Assembly: GCA_005798825.1 (NCBI GenBank)
Contig: SYIL01000004.1
Location: 186,001-250,000 of the forward strand
Source: Bacteroidota bacterium
Lineage (GTDB): Bacteria; Bacteroidota; Bacteroidia; NS11-12g; UBA955
Reading direction: 5' to 3'
Length of the DNA stretch: 64,000 nucleotides
This document shows positions 48 to 7,606 of this stretch, piece after piece (positions within the stretch are counted from its first letter, which is position 1; the number at the start of each line of letters is the position of its first letter). The notes beneath the pieces were generated by a model. The model saw nothing but the letters and a program-made list of their open reading frames with translations, was not told the DNA's origin and ran no database searches. The position numbers and the translations under genes were made by a program.

Positions 48-1892
48 TCAATGAATAACCACAATTTTAGCTTTATAAATCTTGGATACATGATCTACGA
101 TATTGGCATAATAAATACCAGGCAATACCAAAGACAAATCAATGACATTGTTGTCGACACAAATATTTTGTTTCTTGCCGTCCATACCCCATAATTCAAC
201 ACTGGTAATATTGTCTATTCCCATTACTTTTACCTGACTTGTTGCAGGATTGGGATAAAAAACCACTGGCTTAGAAAACATATCTTCTGTTGATGCCAAT
301 ACCACTGTAATATAATTTGTTTTTGAAATTTGATCTGTCCCCATTGAATTTGACAAGCTCAGCGAAACAGAATATAATCCCAATGAACCGAATTTGACTT
401 CCGGGTTTCTGGAAAGGTTGTTTGTGGAGTTTACATAGGAAAATGTAGATGGGCTGATGGTCCAATTCCAAGCAGTAGGATTATTTTCTGACAAATCAAC
501 CAAGCGAATGATTTGCGTTACGGTTGGGTTTGTAATATCTGCCATAAAATTGGCTACTGGTTTAAGATTGCTTATATTGGATACGTTGATATAACTGTTT
601 TTGGTTGTCAAACTCTTGTCTGATGAATTACTGCCCTCAAGTGATATAGTATATGATCCAGTTGCGCTAAATGAAAGAAAAATATTTTTATCCGTAAGCT
701 TAGAATTCGCTTGCAAAGAATACGTATTGGGAGTGATAGACCAACTGTATGCCTTCGTGTATTTACAGTTGGATACCAGCGCTACTGTCTGGCCAACGTT
801 AACCGAAGTTTTGTTTGCAGAAAAATCTACAACAGGAGGCGTTTGCAGTGTCAGGCGACGAATTACATTGTTTTTTGTATCACAAATAAAGAAAGCCGAA
901 TCGGCAGGTCGGTAGGTAAACAAGGTCAAATCGCCAAAAATTGCATCCTTTGCCAAGCCATCCTTATATCCGGTTTCTGCATCCTGACCAGCATAAATTT
1001 TGACAGTTGTTCCATCAAATACCTTAATACTGTATTGGTCGGCTATATAAATTAAGCCATTGACAGAAACAACGTCACTAGGCAAATTTAATCCGCTGGA
1101 TATTACTGTTGTAACTTCATTGGTTTTGAGATTTAACCGTTTGATTTTTTTGTTGTTTCGATCGGCGATCAACAGGCTATTGTCGTTTTCTAACCATATA
1201 CCGGAAGGTGCGTAAAACATAGCCTTTGCTCCAATACCATTTGCATCTCCCTTGGTTTTGGGCTGCCCTGCAATGGTGGTCACTTTCCCTGAGGATATTT
1301 TACGAATTACTTCATTGCCAAAATCACAGATATATATTTCTCCACTTGAATTAATCGCTATATCCGAAGGACTCGAAAAATAAGCATCGGCGACCAATCC
1401 GTCCTTGTGATCACCAACAAAAGAATAATTACCCGCAATTGTAGTAAAAACAGTACCATTGGGAGTATTTACGAACTGAGACCCTTTTCGTATCAATGCA
1501 TTGTCTGTATCAACAATGTATACATCGTTGGTCGTTTTATTAATTGCCAATCCTGATGGCATATTGAATCTTGACACTGTGGCTGTTCCATTGTCAATAC
1601 CAATGGCACCAGGCTCATTGGGGTCACCCAAGAAACCACCTCGAATTAGACTGTAAGGCCCGTTTAATATAATAACATTGTGTTGGTCTGTTACCCATAA
1701 GCGGTTGTTGTTATCGGGACAAACGCCCATTGGGATACTAAACAACTCTTCCAACAATAAATTGCTAGAAGTTGAATTAAACTCGCCACTGCCCAGGTAT
1801 TGTTTTCCCGCATAGGTGGTCACATTTTGCGCGTTGGCATTGAACAAAACGCCTATTGTCACTAACAATATTTGTAAATTTTTACTGTTCAT
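48..1892 (-). CDS. Secreted NHL-repeat/PKD protein with T9SS type A sorting domain
   Basis: 614 aa. It has an N-terminal signal peptide ending near NANAQ. About residues 25-350 hold NHL-type beta-propeller repeats (phrases such as PSGIWLENDNSLLIADRNN and LINKT..DVYIVDTDN). Two PKD-like Ig domains follow (about 355-440 and 445-535). The last 75 residues form a Por/T9SS type A sorting domain (NPATSQVKV..., VELWGMDGKK, then a basic tail). This fits an extracellular or cell-surface protein exported by the type IX system; its ligand is unknown. The ATG overlaps the end of purC by 11 bases, so the two are probably co-transcribed, although purine synthesis and a surface protein have no obvious functional link. 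Confidence 0.85.
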   Translation of the reverse strand: MNSKNLQILLVTIGVLFNANAQNVTTYAGKQYLGSGEFNSTSSNLLLEELFSIPMGVCPDNNNRLWVTDQHNVIILNGPYSLIRGGFLGDPNEPGAIGIDNGTATVSRFNMPSGLAINKTTNDVYIVDTDNALIRKGSQFVNTPNGTVFTTIAGNYSFVGDHKDGLVADAYFSSPSDIAINSSGEIYICDFGNEVIRKISSGKVTTIAGQPKTKGDANGIGAKAMFYAPSGIWLENDNSLLIADRNNKKIKRLNLKTNEVTTVISSGLNLPSDVVSVNGLIYIADQYSIKVFDGTTVKIYAGQDAETGYKDGLAKDAIFGDLTLFTYRPADSAFFICDTKNNVIRRLTLQTPPVVDFSANKTSVNVGQTVALVSNCKYTKAYSWSITPNTYSLQANSKLTDKNIFLSFSATGSYTISLEGSNSSDKSLTTKNSYINVSNISNLKPVANFMADITNPTVTQIIRLVDLSENNPTAWNWTISPSTFSYVNSTNNLSRNPEVKFGSLGLYSVSLSLSNSMGTDQISKTNYITVVLASTEDMFSKPVVFYPNPATSQVKVMGIDNITSVELWGMDGKKQNICVDNNVIDLSLVLPGIYYANIVDHVSKIYKAKIVVIH

Positions 1893-2847
1893 CGGAGTGT
1901 TTTATTAATTCGTTGTTAATGTTATTTTCTATTTGCTCAAAAATATTCTCATACGACCTTCGCTTCAATGGGCTACCTGTCATTGCCAAAAACAGTTCTT
2001 CATACCTGTTTGAAATATTGTCTACGAACTCATCGGTCATTAAGGGAATAACTTCACCTTCTTTCCCTTGAAATCCATTTTTTATTAGCCATTCTCGCAC
2101 AAATTCCTTGCTTAATTGACGTTGAGAGAGCCCTTGTTGTTGCAACTCATCATAGGTGTCCAAATAAAAAAACCGACTGCTATCAGGTGTGTGAATTTCA
2201 TCAATTAATACTATGCTATCGTTCTTCAAGCCAAATTCATATTTGGTATCGACAAGAATCAATCCCCTGTCATGGGAAATTTGAGACCCTCTTTCAAACA
2301 GTGCGTAACTGGTTTCATACAATGCATCTAGCGTTACTTGAGGCACAATGCCACTCTCCAATATTTCAATGTAACTGGTATCAACGTCGTGGCCACTGTG
2401 CGCTTTTGTTGAAGGGGTAATAATGCAGTTAGGCAAGGGATCGTTCTCCTTGAGACCTTCCGGCAGTTTATTCCCACAAAGCATTCTCCCACCCTCTCTG
2501 TAAGTTCGCCAAGCATGTCCTGTAAGGTATTTTCGCAAGACAAACTCAATCGGAATCGGTTCACATCGACGACCGATCGTTACATGGGGATCTGGAGTAG
2601 ATATTTTCCAATTGGGAACAATATCTCTTGTTTTGTCGAGAAAAAAACCAGCAATTGCGTTCAAGACTTGTCCTTTGTATGGAATGCTGCGCGGCAAGAC
2701 ATGATCGAAAGCAGAAATCCGATCACAAGCAATCATGACCAACAAATTTGAACCAATGCTGTATACATCTCGGACTTTGCCTCGGTAAAAGTTACTTTGA
2801 TTCGGAAAGAAAAAATTACTGGCAGTAAGAGAATTGGCCTGTATCAT
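1882..2847 (-). CDS. purC: Phosphoribosylaminoimidazole-succinocarboxamide synthase (SAICAR synthetase)
   Basis: 321 aa. It joins CAIR and aspartate using ATP in de novo purine synthesis, in the cytoplasm. The N-terminal motif FYRGKVRDVYSIG, the ACDRISAFDHVLP segment, the GRRCEPIPIEFVLRKYLTG stretch and the LVDTKYEFGL motif near residue 200 are those of PurC. The length matches the longer PurC form (about 300 aa) common in Bacteroidota. The ATG lies 14 bases after a TAnnTTTG promoter element. Other purine genes in the window (purN, guaA) are elsewhere, so the pathway is dispersed. Confidence 0.97.
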   Translation of the reverse strand: MIQANSLTASNFFFPNQSNFYRGKVRDVYSIGSNLLVMIACDRISAFDHVLPRSIPYKGQVLNAIAGFFLDKTRDIVPNWKISTPDPHVTIGRRCEPIPIEFVLRKYLTGHAWRTYREGGRMLCGNKLPEGLKENDPLPNCIITPSTKAHSGHDVDTSYIEILESGIVPQVTLDALYETSYALFERGSQISHDRGLILVDTKYEFGLKNDSIVLIDEIHTPDSSRFFYLDTYDELQQQGLSQRQLSKEFVREWLIKNGFQGKEGEVIPLMTDEFVDNISNRYEELFLAMTGSPLKRRSYENIFEQIENNINNELIKHSDEQ

Positions 2848-2886: not shown

Positions 2887-3870
2887 TTATTGTGAATCTT
2901 TTTCACAATCGGGGTCTCGTTCATAGGCGTGTACAATTTCTTTGACGAGTCTATGCCTGACCACATCATCTGTGTCTAGTTCAATTGCGGCGATCCCTTT
3001 GATATTTTTGAGCAATTTCAGTGCCTTCCCCAATCCACTTTGTTGCTTTCGAGGCAGGTCTATTTGTGTCAAATCGCCAGTGATAATTAATTTTGCACTC
3101 GGACCCATGCGGGTAAGAAACATTTTCAATTGAAGGTCAGTAGTATTTTGTGCCTCATCTAATATTACATAACAATTGTCAAGCGTTCTGCCCCTCATAA
3201 ATGCCAATGGTGCTATTTCTACGATCCGACTTTCGATCATACTTTTTAGCTTATCGTTGGGAATCATATCTTCCAGTGCGTCATACAGTGGCCTGAGGTA
3301 TGGATCGATTTTGTCTTTGAGGTCGCCTGGGAGAAATCCCAAACTTTCGCCTGCTTCAACCGCAGGTCGGGTTAATATTATTCTGCGAATTTCTCGCTCT
3401 TTGAGCGCCAAAACAGCTATTGCCACCGCTGTATAGGTTTTTCCTGTTCCAGCTGGGCCGATTGCAAAAATGATGTCATTTTCTCGCGAAGCATTGACCA
3501 TTTTAACTTGGTTGCGTGTTCTCGCCTTGATTTGTTGACCACGGGTACCAATCAACAAAACATCTCCTGTGCTTATAGCAGACACTTTTTCGGACTTTAC
3601 TGCAGGTTCATCAATATTGATTGATTCCATTGCCTCCAAAACGATGTGTTCATTAATATCTTTTGCTTTTGAAAACACATATTCCAGGTGTTTCATTGAT
3701 TTGTGAAAATTATTCATCGATAATTCATCACCCAATATTTTGATTTCATCGCCCCTGGCAACAAACTGCAATTTTGGAAATTTCGCTTTGATAATCGAGA
3801 AATGACTGTTGTTTGGCCCGTAAAATAATTGGGGATCAATTACATCGAGAGTATAAATTTTTTCGGTCAA
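2887..3870 (-). CDS. PhoH family ATPase (YbeZ-like)
   Basis: 327 aa. A PhoH-type P-loop NTPase, a family linked to RNA metabolism and ribosome maturation. The Walker A motif is GPAGTGKT (about residue 139-146) and Walker B is VILDEAQNTT; RPAVEAGESLGFLPGD and the ITGDLTQIDLP motif are diagnostic. The N-terminal third is the RNA-binding-like domain typical of PhoH-like proteins. The only available start is TTG at 3870, because an in-frame TAA lies just upstream. The N-terminal sequence (IYTLDVIDPQLFYG) agrees with what I recall of the family, so TTG is probably real. It is followed 39 bases on by purC, transcribed the same way. Confidence 0.93.
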   Translation of the reverse strand: MTEKIYTLDVIDPQLFYGPNNSHFSIIKAKFPKLQFVARGDEIKILGDELSMNNFHKSMKHLEYVFSKAKDINEHIVLEAMESINIDEPAVKSEKVSAISTGDVLLIGTRGQQIKARTRNQVKMVNASRENDIIFAIGPAGTGKTYTAVAIAVLALKEREIRRIILTRPAVEAGESLGFLPGDLKDKIDPYLRPLYDALEDMIPNDKLKSMIESRIVEIAPLAFMRGRTLDNCYVILDEAQNTTDLQLKMFLTRMGPSAKLIITGDLTQIDLPRKQQSGLGKALKLLKNIKGIAAIELDTDDVVRHRLVKEIVHAYERDPDCEKDSQ

Positions 3871-4118: not shown

Positions 4119-6401
4119 ATGAATACATTAATACCTACACCCAGCATCGCATTTAGTTTCATTTTAGGACTGACTTTATGTTTCTATTCTTGCAATTCCC
4201 CCAAAAATTATGAAACAGACTCCCGTTTTGATGGCAATCGTAAAATGGCCAAATTGTTGGATAGCCTGAATAACACAGCCGACCCAGATATCAATTATTT
4301 CTTAAGTGGTCCAAGGGCGGCTCGAATGAAATCAAAGGGGCATACGTTTACTGAACCTCAAGACATTATCCTTTGGGAAACGAAATACTGTTTTGAATTA
4401 CTGAATGCGGGCAATACAGAAGATGCCATAAAAAACCTTTTGTTAATGATCAACAACTACAAGGGCGGATTTGAAAAGGCATTGCAAAATCCACAGTTTA
4501 AAAAAGTATTTGATCTGTTGGCAGTTGCTAATTTGCGTTTGGGTGAGTCTGAAAATTGTCTTTCAAACCACAATTCTGCCAGCTGTATTATGCCATTAAA
4601 AGAAAATGCACTCCATCAAATTCCCAAAGGATCAAACAATGCCATTGAACTATATTCTAAAATTTTAAGTAAATATCCCGATGATTTACAGAGTAAATGG
4701 CTTTTAAACATAGCATACATGACGCTCGGCCAATACCCATTAAAGGTTCCAGCCCAGCACCTGATTCCTTTTAACGAATTGGATGAGCCTTGTCCTGGTT
4801 TTGTCCCTTTCAAAAATCTCGCTGTTGAATTGGGGATTGACGTAAACAATTTGGCTGGCGCTTCGATTATAGAAGATTTTAACAATGATGGGTTGATGGA
4901 TATTTTCTGTACTTCCTATGGTTTGTTTGATGAGGTAAAACTTTTCATCGCGGATGGAAAGGGTTCATATTCCAACGAAAGTGGCAAAGCCATGCTCACG
5001 GGAATCGTGGGTGGACTCAATGCCAAACAAGCAGATTTTAACAATGATGGGTTGATGGACATTCTTATTTTGCGAGGCGCATGGCTGGATAAAGGGGGCG
5101 AATGGCCAAATAGTTTGTTGCGAAACAATGGTGATGGAACCTTTAGCGACATTACCATCTCTGCGGGAATGCTCAGTTTTTGCCCAACCGAAACAGCAAC
5201 TTGGGCAGATGTAAACAATGACGGCTTACTTGATGTATTTATTGCCAATGAGAACAATGAGGCCAATGAATTTCCCTGTGAATTATTTATCAATAACGGC
5301 AACGAAACATTTACCAATGTTGCCAAAGATTGGGGTTTAGCCGGAAATTTTGGATGGGCTAAAGCGGCCATTTTTGCAGACTTTAACAACGATGGATTAC
5401 AAGACTTATTTATCTCTTGTTTGAACCAATCCAATAAATTATTTATGAACCGTGGCCAGAGCCAAAAATCCCGGAAAATGGTGTTTGAGAATATAGCCGA
5501 AAAAGCAGGTATCACGCTGCCATTTCAAAGTTTTCCAGCCTTGGTGTTTGACTACAATAATGATGGCTTAGAAGATATTTTCTGCACTTCTTTCCCGATG
5601 GACAAATTGGGCTTGGTTGGAGAAGAGGCGGCAAAAGAATATTTAAGGATCCCCTCGTCTGTAGAAAAAGCCAAACTCTATAAAAACCTAGGGAATGAAA
5701 CCTTCCAAGATGTAAGTAAGTCTATGGGATTGGACAAGATTATTTTTGCCATGGGCTTTAATTTTGGCGATTTAGACAATGATGGCTGGTTAGATGTGTA
5801 TACTGGTACAGGAGCCTTTGAGTTCACTTCGCTTGCGCCGAACCGGGTATTTAAGAACGATAAAGGTACACATTTCTCAGAAATTACGATGGCTTCCGGA
5901 ATGGCCCATTTACAAAAAGGGCATGGGATATCTTTCGGAGATCTTGACAACGATGGCGATCAAGATTTGTATATTACACTGGGAGGTGCTGTAGAAGGAG
6001 ACAATGCACACAATGCTTTATTTGCCAACCCAAATCATAAAAATCATTGGATTACCCTCATACTAGAAGGCGTAGGTTCTGCCAAAGATGGACAAACCAG
6101 CCGGGTAAAAATTGTAAGTTCTGGAACAGAGGGCCGACAAGTTTTTTACCATACAGTCGGGTCCGGTGGATCCTTTGGGGCCAATAGCATTCAATTAGAG
6201 GCTGGCTTGGGCAATTCTAGCACGATTGAATCTGTAGAAATTTTATGGATGGGTGACCCGAAAAAGAAAGAAGTTTTTACAAATCTGCCGATCGACAAGG
6301 TTGTAAAGATTGTCCAAGGATCCAAAAAATTTACTGTGATTCAGCGTTTACCCATTCCACTCAAAGGCAATGGAAATTCGGCCAATTGTTGTAAAAAATA
6401 G
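4119..6401 (+). CDS. CRTAC1-like FG-GAP/VCBS lipoprotein with ASPIC/UnbV domain
   Basis: 760 aa. A lipoprotein-type leader ends at a cysteine near residue 25 (LTLCFYSC). Residues about 60-200 look like a helical, TPR-like region. From about 240 to 640 come at least six FG-GAP/VCBS propeller blades, each with a calcium-loop motif (DFNNDGLMDIF, DVNNDGLLDVF, DFNNDGLQDLF, DYNNDGLEDIF, DLDNDGWLDVY, DLDNDGDQDLY). The C-terminal 110 residues match the ASPIC/UnbV domain found in the CRTAC1 family (NHWITLILEG and a QVFYHTVGSGGSFG stretch). Likely an outer-membrane-anchored, calcium-dependent binding or adhesion protein; substrate unknown. It is monocistronic by position. Confidence 0.88.
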   Translation: MNTLIPTPSIAFSFILGLTLCFYSCNSPKNYETDSRFDGNRKMAKLLDSLNNTADPDINYFLSGPRAARMKSKGHTFTEPQDIILWETKYCFELLNAGNTEDAIKNLLLMINNYKGGFEKALQNPQFKKVFDLLAVANLRLGESENCLSNHNSASCIMPLKENALHQIPKGSNNAIELYSKILSKYPDDLQSKWLLNIAYMTLGQYPLKVPAQHLIPFNELDEPCPGFVPFKNLAVELGIDVNNLAGASIIEDFNNDGLMDIFCTSYGLFDEVKLFIADGKGSYSNESGKAMLTGIVGGLNAKQADFNNDGLMDILILRGAWLDKGGEWPNSLLRNNGDGTFSDITISAGMLSFCPTETATWADVNNDGLLDVFIANENNEANEFPCELFINNGNETFTNVAKDWGLAGNFGWAKAAIFADFNNDGLQDLFISCLNQSNKLFMNRGQSQKSRKMVFENIAEKAGITLPFQSFPALVFDYNNDGLEDIFCTSFPMDKLGLVGEEAAKEYLRIPSSVEKAKLYKNLGNETFQDVSKSMGLDKIIFAMGFNFGDLDNDGWLDVYTGTGAFEFTSLAPNRVFKNDKGTHFSEITMASGMAHLQKGHGISFGDLDNDGDQDLYITLGGAVEGDNAHNALFANPNHKNHWITLILEGVGSAKDGQTSRVKIVSSGTEGRQVFYHTVGSGGSFGANSIQLEAGLGNSSTIESVEILWMGDPKKKEVFTNLPIDKVVKIVQGSKKFTVIQRLPIPLKGNGNSANCCKK

Positions 6402-6462: not shown

Positions 6463-6470
6463 TATATTTG
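6463..6470 (+). promoter_or_regulatory. Bacteroidota -7 element (TATATTTG) before the SAM-hydrolase-like gene
   Basis: Exact TAnnTTTG, 42 bases before the ATG at 6513. A TTG codon in the same frame lies only 3 bases after it (6474), so the start codon choice is linked to where transcription begins. Confidence 0.45.
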
Positions 6471-6512: not shown

Positions 6513-7310
6513 ATGTCGACAACAAATTCGGTCCCAGATCCATTATTGCACTTACTGTGTGATTTTAGTGTTGAATCTCCCGATTTCACTATATCACAAG
6601 CCTTAATGGCAAAACATTTTCCCAAAAACAGATGTGTCGTTAGCCCCCAGAAATTTAAAAAAGGGCATATACTAGCCCAATCCGTATTTTTAAAGTTGGT
6701 GGTTCCCTCATTCCCAGACGGAACGATACATATTTGCAGGGTCGGCACCATGAGCAAACAAGCAGCAAGATTTATCGTGGCAAAAAGCGACGGACATTAT
6801 TTCATGGGGCCCGACAATGGTTTGTTGTCTTTGTGTTTTGAAGATCCTAAGCTCGAATACTTCAATATTACCCCTGAGAATCCCGTTCAAGATCCTTTGA
6901 AACAAGTGTATATTCCTGCAATTGAAAAACTCGTCGCTGCGAACATGACCCTTTCTGGCATATTTGATGTCAAGGAAACCATTGTAAGATCGATGCTTCC
7001 CACCCCAACACTTTCTAATGACACCCTAAATCTTACCGTTATTTATATCGATTATTATGGAAATGTATATTTTAATTTAGACCGAAAGACATTTATAGAA
7101 GTGGGGAAAGGCCGCAACTTTAAATTGCGAATCAACAGTAATATTGTCATTCAAAAACTAAGTAACCAGTACAATGACGTAAATGAAGGGCATGAATTGT
7201 GTATGTTTGGCCACGGAGATATTTTACAAGTAGCCGTCAATAGCGGATCAGCAGAACAATACCTGGGATTGGGTGATGGCAGAAACGTAATTATTCAATT
7301 TGCCGTATGA
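6513..7310 (+). CDS. S-adenosyl-L-methionine hydroxide adenosyltransferase-like protein (DUF62 fold), probably degenerate
   Basis: 265 aa from the ATG at 6513; a TTG start at 6474 would add 13 residues. The overall fold signature of the SAM hydrolase/chlorinase (DUF62) family is visible: LLCDF near residue 17 where relatives have TTDFG, SFPDGTIHI (67-75), GHYFMGPDNGLLS (94-106), and VIYIDYYGNVYFNL in the C-terminal domain. However, the loop that normally reads VDPGVGxxRR is RVGTMSKQAAR here (78-86 region), and the TFHGRDIF-type segment is DPLKQVYI. The Asp, Arg and His that catalyse water attack on SAM in the family therefore appear to be absent. It may bind SAM or another adenosyl compound without hydrolysis. 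It overlaps the next gene by ATGA, suggesting coupled translation. Confidence 0.8.
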   Translation: MSTTNSVPDPLLHLLCDFSVESPDFTISQALMAKHFPKNRCVVSPQKFKKGHILAQSVFLKLVVPSFPDGTIHICRVGTMSKQAARFIVAKSDGHYFMGPDNGLLSLCFEDPKLEYFNITPENPVQDPLKQVYIPAIEKLVAANMTLSGIFDVKETIVRSMLPTPTLSNDTLNLTVIYIDYYGNVYFNLDRKTFIEVGKGRNFKLRINSNIVIQKLSNQYNDVNEGHELCMFGHGDILQVAVNSGSAEQYLGLGDGRNVIIQFAV

Positions 7311-7606
7311 TCGAGAGAATCGTAATTATGACTTTCTTGCCCGAAAAGGTAGAAGAATTTATGGGTATTTTTGATTCGTCTAGTTCCTCAATTCGTCAAT
7401 TTTCGGGCTGTCACGGATTGCGTTTACTCCAAACCAAAGAAAAACCCTTTCAATTCACCACCTACAGTATTTGGGAATCGGACTTGGCCCTCGAAAATTA
7501 CAGAAACTCCGAATTATTTACTTCAACTTGGGCTAAAACAAAAGTATTGTTTATGGATAAGCCCATAGCATTTTCAAGCCTGCTTTCCCGGGAAGTTAAA
7601 GGATGA
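7307..7606 (+). CDS. Small ABM-fold (antibiotic biosynthesis monooxygenase-like) protein
   Basis: 99 aa. The pattern of a beta strand (ERIVIMTF), a helix containing EKVEEFMGIFDSS, GCHGLRLLQTKE, then FTTYSIWESDLALENYRNS with a helix and the hydrophobic end KVLFMDKPIAFSSL matches the dimeric ferredoxin-like ABM fold, which includes heme-degrading and quinol monooxygenases and many proteins of unknown role. No catalytic assignment is possible from the sequence. The ATG overlaps the TGA of the SAM-hydrolase-like gene (ATGA). Its stop directly abuts the stop of the convergent GlcD-like gene with no bases between. Confidence 0.7.
   Translation: MIERIVIMTFLPEKVEEFMGIFDSSSSSIRQFSGCHGLRLLQTKEKPFQFTTYSIWESDLALENYRNSELFTSTWAKTKVLFMDKPIAFSSLLSREVKG

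Follow-up and report, generated by a model that had tools for sequence, protein, structure and literature searches.

A Bacteroidota Lineage of DUF62-Fold Proteins without the Asp-Arg-His Triad and Its Genomic Neighbourhood

The DUF62-Like Gene and Its Locus

The window, i.e., the whole stretch of 64,000 nt that was analysed, belongs to a 1.93 Mb, 91%-complete genome in 45 contigs. Within it, a gene of the SAM_HAT/DUF62 superfamily is followed by an ABM-fold gene and separated by one gene from a divergent phoH (Table 1). In the following, class and order refer to those of the window, and triad-bearing DUF62 proteins are called canonical.

Table 1. Features of the locus, given as positions in the window
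Feature	Position	Strand	Details
purC (SAICAR synthetase), beyond phoH in many loci	1882..2847	-	PF01259, 218.4 bits
phoH, conserved divergent neighbour of the lineage, here with one inserted gene between	2887..3870	-	PF02562, 303.9 bits
FG-GAP/UnbV_ASPIC gene between phoH and the DUF62-like gene	4119..6401		domain match
Triad-less SAM_HAT/DUF62-fold protein	6513..7310	+	265 aa; ORF, Pfam, AF2 pLDDT 91.2, Foldseek and VIA matches
Asp17, equivalent of fluorinase Asp16, kept	6561..6563	+	Asp in 76/76 class and 53/55 order rows
Gly78 replacing catalytic Asp68	6744..6746	+	codon ggc; family and profile alignments
Ala85 replacing catalytic Arg75	6765..6767	+	codon gca; family and profile alignments
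PDNG motif, kept (residues 100-103)	6810..6821	+	translation and class conservation
Pro128 replacing catalytic His127	6894..6896	+	codon cct; family and profile alignments
Asp180-x-x-Gly183-Asn184 (IDxxFGN motif, C-terminal domain), kept	7050..7064	+	alignments
ABM-fold protein	7307..7606	+	99 aa; PF03992, 44.3 bits (cut-off 23.1); start overlaps the DUF62-like stop

The DUF62-like gene, the sole PF01887 match in its genome, begins with ATG and has an intact reading frame. Both domain models of the superfamily score above their gathering thresholds, SAM_HAT_N (PF01887) over residues 13-123 with 63.4 bits (cut-off 26.3) and SAM_HAT_C (PF20257) over residues 175-259 with 64 bits (cut-off 25.5), and the DUF62 fold markers quoted in the first-pass annotation are present in the translation. 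Approximately 43 bases 5' of the start codon, at 6463-6470, TATATTTG is found, which by inspection is similar to TAnnTTTG, the -7 consensus of promoters in Bacteroidota; a clear -33 element could not be made out by eye.

Named relatives of the window protein derive from Bacteroidota MAGs, many of them freshwater. Among these, the closest is a protein of 89% identity from another assembly, “Flavobacteriales bacterium Baikal-G2”, with the identical motif change, which rules out a sequencing error in the window. The outcome that would have undone the first-pass annotation, close relatives with the normal motif and an error here, did not appear, since relatives of the same lineage lack the normal motif as well. 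Compared with its counterpart in genome G008, the DUF62-like gene has a dN/dS of 0.112, and the neighbouring genes in the same comparison have 0.037 (phoH), 0.100 (purC), 0.115 (FG-GAP gene), 0.179 (ABM gene), and 0.083 (FAD oxidase gene); in case of the more distant loci L143 and L058, dS of the DUF62-like gene is saturated and these two comparisons are uninformative. The gene is under ordinary strong purifying constraint. Together with the complete ORF and the motif change shared by the 89%-identical relative, this rules out decay to a pseudogene, which the gene did not look like in the first-pass annotation either.

Superfamily Membership and Predicted Fold

The AlphaFold2 model of the window protein, computed from 32 sequences, has a mean pLDDT of 91.2 and a pTM of 0.86. 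All 40 Foldseek matches in the PDB at E<=0.001 are DUF62 hydrolases, chlorinases, or fluorinases, and none of the chains among the sequence and structure matches is described as originating from the triad-less lineage. In VIA-align, the model superposes on 2zbu with a Z of 23.0, on 2wr8 (PH0463 with SAH) with 21.2, on 1rqp (fluorinase) with 20.3, and on 6ryz (SalL) with 20.1. Superfamily matches extend down to a Z of 19.1 (2f4n) over 228-255 residues and the next fold follows at 6.8; matches with Z<=6.8, among them ribose-binding proteins and the LacI family, were regarded as instances of a common Rossmann-like arrangement. Structure prediction and superposition on DUF62 and fluorinase structures (Z 19-23) agree with the DUF62 assignment made from the translation. 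As far as the model goes, the two-domain PH0463/fluorinase fold is kept and the catalytic set is lost. A separate observation concerns PDB 22uy chain A (MJ1651), titled mutant R89A, in which chain position 89, the Arg75 column, prints Gln as counted by hand.

With the NCBIfam (R)-SAM hydrolase models, the window protein scores 57.1 and 56.5 bits against cut-offs of 350 and 470, which do not discriminate, since the canonical protein of locus L066 also stays below them (223.3 and 188.6). The fluorinase model TIGR04507 gives 17.7 bits, far from its cut-off of 400.

Residues of the Triad and the Pocket

PMC10491745 describes a His-Arg-Asp triad as a strictly conserved feature of DUF62 proteins that is found in no other proteins and activates the water. 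D68-R75-H127, D16, N215, and the IDxxFGN motif are named in PMC4859513, in which D16, N215, and IDxxFGN are described as conserved across halogenases and hydrolases and as part of the binding pocket, and D16 as a conserved residue of the active site.

Profile alignment to PDB chains and family alignments both place Asp68, Arg75, and His127 of PH0463 opposite Gly78, Ala85, and Pro128 of the window protein, which, as a profile with 31 relatives, aligns with PH0463 over the full length at 94 bits. The water-activating triad of the hydrolases is consequently missing, as first read from the translation, and both the VDPGVG and the TFHGRD loops are gone. In case of the TFHGRDIF segment, the replacement stands but its aligned partner is QDPLKQVY instead of DPLKQVYI, so that His127 corresponds to Pro128. 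No substitute His is found at or adjoining the His127 column in the window protein.

At the Arg76 column, next to that of Arg75, the window protein has Arg86; canonical proteins vary there, and 16 of the 41 have Arg. Among 12 aligned sequences of the window's family, Arg86 is invariant and His52 nearly so. The family possesses its own conserved SPQ...KKGH52 stretch (residues 44-52) in addition to Arg86, both absent from the rest of the lineage and both possible candidates for new site residues. Asp21, the Asp and the His of VDITH, and the Lys of KG are all lost from the window protein. On the flanks of the ligand side, Asp17, Asp180, Gly183, Asn184, and Asn188 are invariant or nearly so.

Extent of the Triad Loss among Homologues

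A homologue of the window gene was found in 54 of 58 searched genomes of the order (its own included), and PF01887 matches occur in 148 of 198 genomes of a phylum sample and in 255 of 295 genomes of a class sample, the class being probably Bacteroidia as judged from named hits, which are Bacteroidota. For the class, 88 loci were fetched, 48 from 46 class genomes of the phylum sample and 40 from the class sample; the latter were picked among the higher-scoring matches listed, two-copy genomes first, which favours canonical-like loci. Canonical loci from outside the class are the 30 best-scoring matches (29 distinct proteins) and thus not a random sample.

The full triad is present in 12 of the 88 class loci and absent from 76. 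These 76 class rows contain no His127, five Arg75, and 40 Asp68; the 55 rows of the order contain neither His127 nor Arg75 and 13 Asp68; and the 11 named rows contain no His127 and one each of Arg75 and Asp68. For the lineage as a whole, 142 rows including a contig-end fragment (L055) that falls short of the triad columns, a complete triad was found in 0 of 141 informative rows, His127 in none, Arg75 in six, and Asp68 in 54; at His127, the alignment has no residue in eight rows of the order, one of them L055, and in one class row. All three residues are present in 41 of 41 canonical proteins, 29 from outside and 12 from within the class, the latter being triad-bearing by definition because the class rows of the lineage were separated from canonical ones by the triad itself. 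Independent of this separation are the tree, the linkage to phoH, and the order and named sets, whose 66 rows were gathered by homology only and contain no complete triad.

A window-specific oddity is thereby ruled out, and the question raised by the first-pass annotation, whether the loss is shared across Bacteroidota homologues, is answered in the affirmative for the genomes sampled. Pro occupies the His127 column in 67% of the class lineage, as it does in the window. On these alignments, the loss is complete across the lineage for His127 only, and Asp68 and Arg75 survive in some class rows. The lineage is a large exception to a triad called strictly conserved in DUF62 in PMC10491745. No description of a triad-less DUF62 lineage of Bacteroidota was found in the open-access literature searched.

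In addition to Asp17 (Table 1), the Asp of the IDxxFGN motif is kept in 76/76 class and 54/55 order rows and its Asn in 76/76 and 47/55, respectively. Asp21 is absent from 54/54 informative rows of the order, in which also the VDITH Asp and His are lost in 35/55 and 34/55 rows, each being present in 20/55. Alignment columns thus suggest that the lineage retains most of the ligand side and has lost the side that activates water, with the ligand side further thinned in the order of the window. At the P, G, V, and G positions of the former VDPGVG loop, the commonest residue in the lineage outside the order reaches 29%, 45%, 12%, and 24%, respectively. Other positions have become nearly invariant in the class lineage, namely His73 (100% vs 54% in canonical proteins), Phe232 (97% vs 27%), Arg201 (84% vs 39%), Phe194, Phe203, and Tyr220, which argues for new constraint rather than drift.

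Tree and Genomes with Two Copies

In a tree of 73 proteins, calculated without the motif columns and without halogenases, the 47 triad-less proteins form one side of a single branch with a support of 100/97, and this branch is present in all 200 bootstrap trees examined. An earlier quick tree that included the motif columns had the same split. L179-L182 carried the order label in the tree set, and their names suggest other groups. The topology fits a single, old loss of the triad.

Seven genomes (G156, G183, G255, G261, G428, G432, and G493) contain one copy of each type, and hence allelic variation at a single gene does not account for the two types. For G328, G309, and G367, each with two matches, only the canonical copy was fetched, and G247 and G503 showed the canonical copy only. 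The triad-bearing second copies of the class (L116, L124, L140, L183, L185, L186, L188, L190, L192, L194, L195, and L196) are found without phoH or ABM linkage, and six of them, L116, L124, L140, L190, L192, and L196, form one tight clade. In L142 (G253, outside the class), which was excluded before counting, the DUF62 gene is broken up into two reading frames, with the triad in the first.

Gene Neighbourhood

A divergent phoH is situated next to the triad-less gene in 105 of 127 testable loci (class 66/76, order 39/51) and in 0 of 42 canonical loci. Seen from the other side, none of the 105 loci defined by divergent phoH has the triad, and none of the 42 canonical loci has phoH. The twelve order loci that miss phoH all belong to the genus of the window, and in four of them, with long flanks, phoH is located further out. 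The insertion of the FG-GAP/UnbV_ASPIC gene is restricted to this genus and splits the otherwise deeply conserved divergent phoH/DUF62-like pair. In case of L095, L101, L114, L121, L125, and L131 of the class, the upstream neighbour is a short-chain dehydrogenase gene on the same strand.

Directly downstream of the triad-less gene, an ABM gene is located in 94 of 130 testable loci (class 46/76, order 48/54); the same holds for 1 of 42 canonical loci. Except for L034, L035, L036, L038, L041, and L148, all testable order loci have it. In the window, start and stop overlap in ATGA (7307-7310), and a spacing of at most 12 bases was obtained for 130 of 138 entries, which include duplicate loci and the canonical locus L077 and rely on start codons guessed by script. 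Overlap, neighbourhood counts, and short spacing substantiate the tight coupling noticed in the first-pass annotation. Among 104 distinct ABM homologues, 10 positions show the same residue in every sequence that is not gapped there, and the best PDB match of the coupled protein has an E of 0.015, i.e., it has no close solved relative.

The coupled ABM-fold protein may be a partner of the DUF62-like protein, but an obligate partnership is ruled out. In 30 genomes with a DUF62-like gene and no adjacent ABM gene, an ABM match (E<=0.001) was detected elsewhere in 12 (seven above 100 bits) and none in 18, and in the latter the DUF62-like protein must act without ABM. Of 19 genomes without a PF01887 match, nine have an ABM match.

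Outside the class, the canonical, triad-bearing DUF62 gene of L077 likewise has an ABM-fold gene directly downstream, so that the linkage is not unique to the lineage; the pair may predate the loss of the triad, or it may have moved. In one group of loci (L113:7638-9278, L138:1389-2519), the DUF62-like/ABM pair is followed downstream by the gene of an ABC_transp_aux (PF09822) protein, presumably GldG-like, and by dnaN.

Possible Function

The explanation we consider best, at about an even chance, is that the window protein is a non-hydrolytic member of the DUF62 superfamily which binds an adenosyl ligand. It is favoured by the persistence of the Asp16 equivalent, located on the ribose side in the N-terminal domain, and of the Asp and Asn of IDxxFGN; the loss of Asp21 throughout the order, together with the VDITH losses, weakens the case for binding of the ancestral ligand. 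The protein would still form the trimer of the superfamily, and between the two domains of neighbouring subunits it would bind a ligand that contains adenosine (SAM, SAH, MTA, or adenosine itself), which would be held or sensed and not hydrolysed. In many species, it would act jointly with the ABM-fold protein to which it is translationally coupled. The pocket has changed further in the order of the window, so the ligand itself may differ there.

The main rival, which we regard as unlikely, is an enzyme that still transfers the adenosyl group but uses a nucleophile different from water. Such an enzyme would not need the triad, as no water has to be activated, and according to PMC10491745 the characterised halogenases of the superfamily, fluorinase and chlorinase among them, lack it and are enzymes nonetheless; loss of the triad therefore does not mean loss of catalysis. 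The persistence of Asp17 and of the IDxxFGN Asp and Asn, the strong purifying selection, and the newly fixed positions would be in good agreement with a transferase as well. However, the remains of the VDPGVG loop are variable, unlike a selected halide site, and the hydrolase models give the window protein higher scores than the fluorinase model does.

A structural or scaffold role in which the binding of an adenosyl ligand has been given up, if only in the order of the window, appears quite improbable: the losses of Asp21 and of the VDITH residues in the order, and in the window also of the Lys of KG, would suit this role, but the ligand-side residues Asp17, Asp180, Gly183, Asn184, and Asn188 have stayed invariant or nearly so. 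The least probable reading is a SAM hydrolase that still operates via substitute residues, e.g., Arg86 or, from the KKGH motif specific to the genus, His52, for which the invariance of Arg86 one residue from the Arg75 column, the near-invariance of His52, and the Arg75 and Asp68 residues surviving in class rows can be adduced, but elsewhere in the lineage neither Arg86 nor His52 is conserved, which makes a shared substitute triad unlikely, His127 is found in no row, with Pro prevailing in the class, and the TFHGRD and VDPGVG loops, invariant in canonical proteins, have dissolved.

Beyond the window protein, it is tempting to speculate, though we hold this wider scenario to be possible rather than likely, that one DUF62 gene lost its triad at or near the base of the class and has since persisted next to phoH as a new single-copy gene in nearly the whole class, its product either sensing an adenosyl ligand or catalysing a new kind of adenosyl transfer with a coupled partner of the ABM fold. 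If true, members that now appear in databases as SAM hydrolase or halogenase homologues would have a function of their own. Annotations as SAM hydrolase or halogenase are probably wrong for a very common gene, with PF01887 matches in 255 of the 295 class genomes. The lineage also represents a natural, class-wide experiment, in which a fold under strong selection has been without the triad for very long and some genomes contain a triad-bearing copy in addition. What DUF62 proteins do physiologically is itself not settled, with doubts raised in PMC12120602 as to whether the family member studied there has (R,S)-SAM hydrolysis as its physiological function.

Comparison with Known Systems

With the (R,S)-SAM hydrolases (DUF62; PH0463, TM, MJ1651), the window protein shares the fold, both Pfam domains, PDNG, IDxxFGN, and the Asp16 equivalent. 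It differs from them by Gly-Ala-Pro in place of the triad and by the missing VDPGVG and TFHGRD loops, as well as by the absence of Asp21, the Lys, and the VDITH Asp and His. Coupled to it in the window, the ABM-fold protein resembles the ABM-fold monooxygenases (PF03992) in matching their model above the cut-off, but has no close relative among the solved structures. The halogenases (fluorinase FlA, chlorinase SalL, and ClA1/ClA2) have the fold in common with the window protein (Z ~20) and, according to PMC10491745, are likewise devoid of the Asp-Arg-His triad. Their halide site is given as T80-S158 in fluorinase and Y70-G131 in SalL in PMC4859513. Unlike the halogenases, the lineage has no uniform sequence in place of the lost loop, and the window protein stays far below the fluorinase model.
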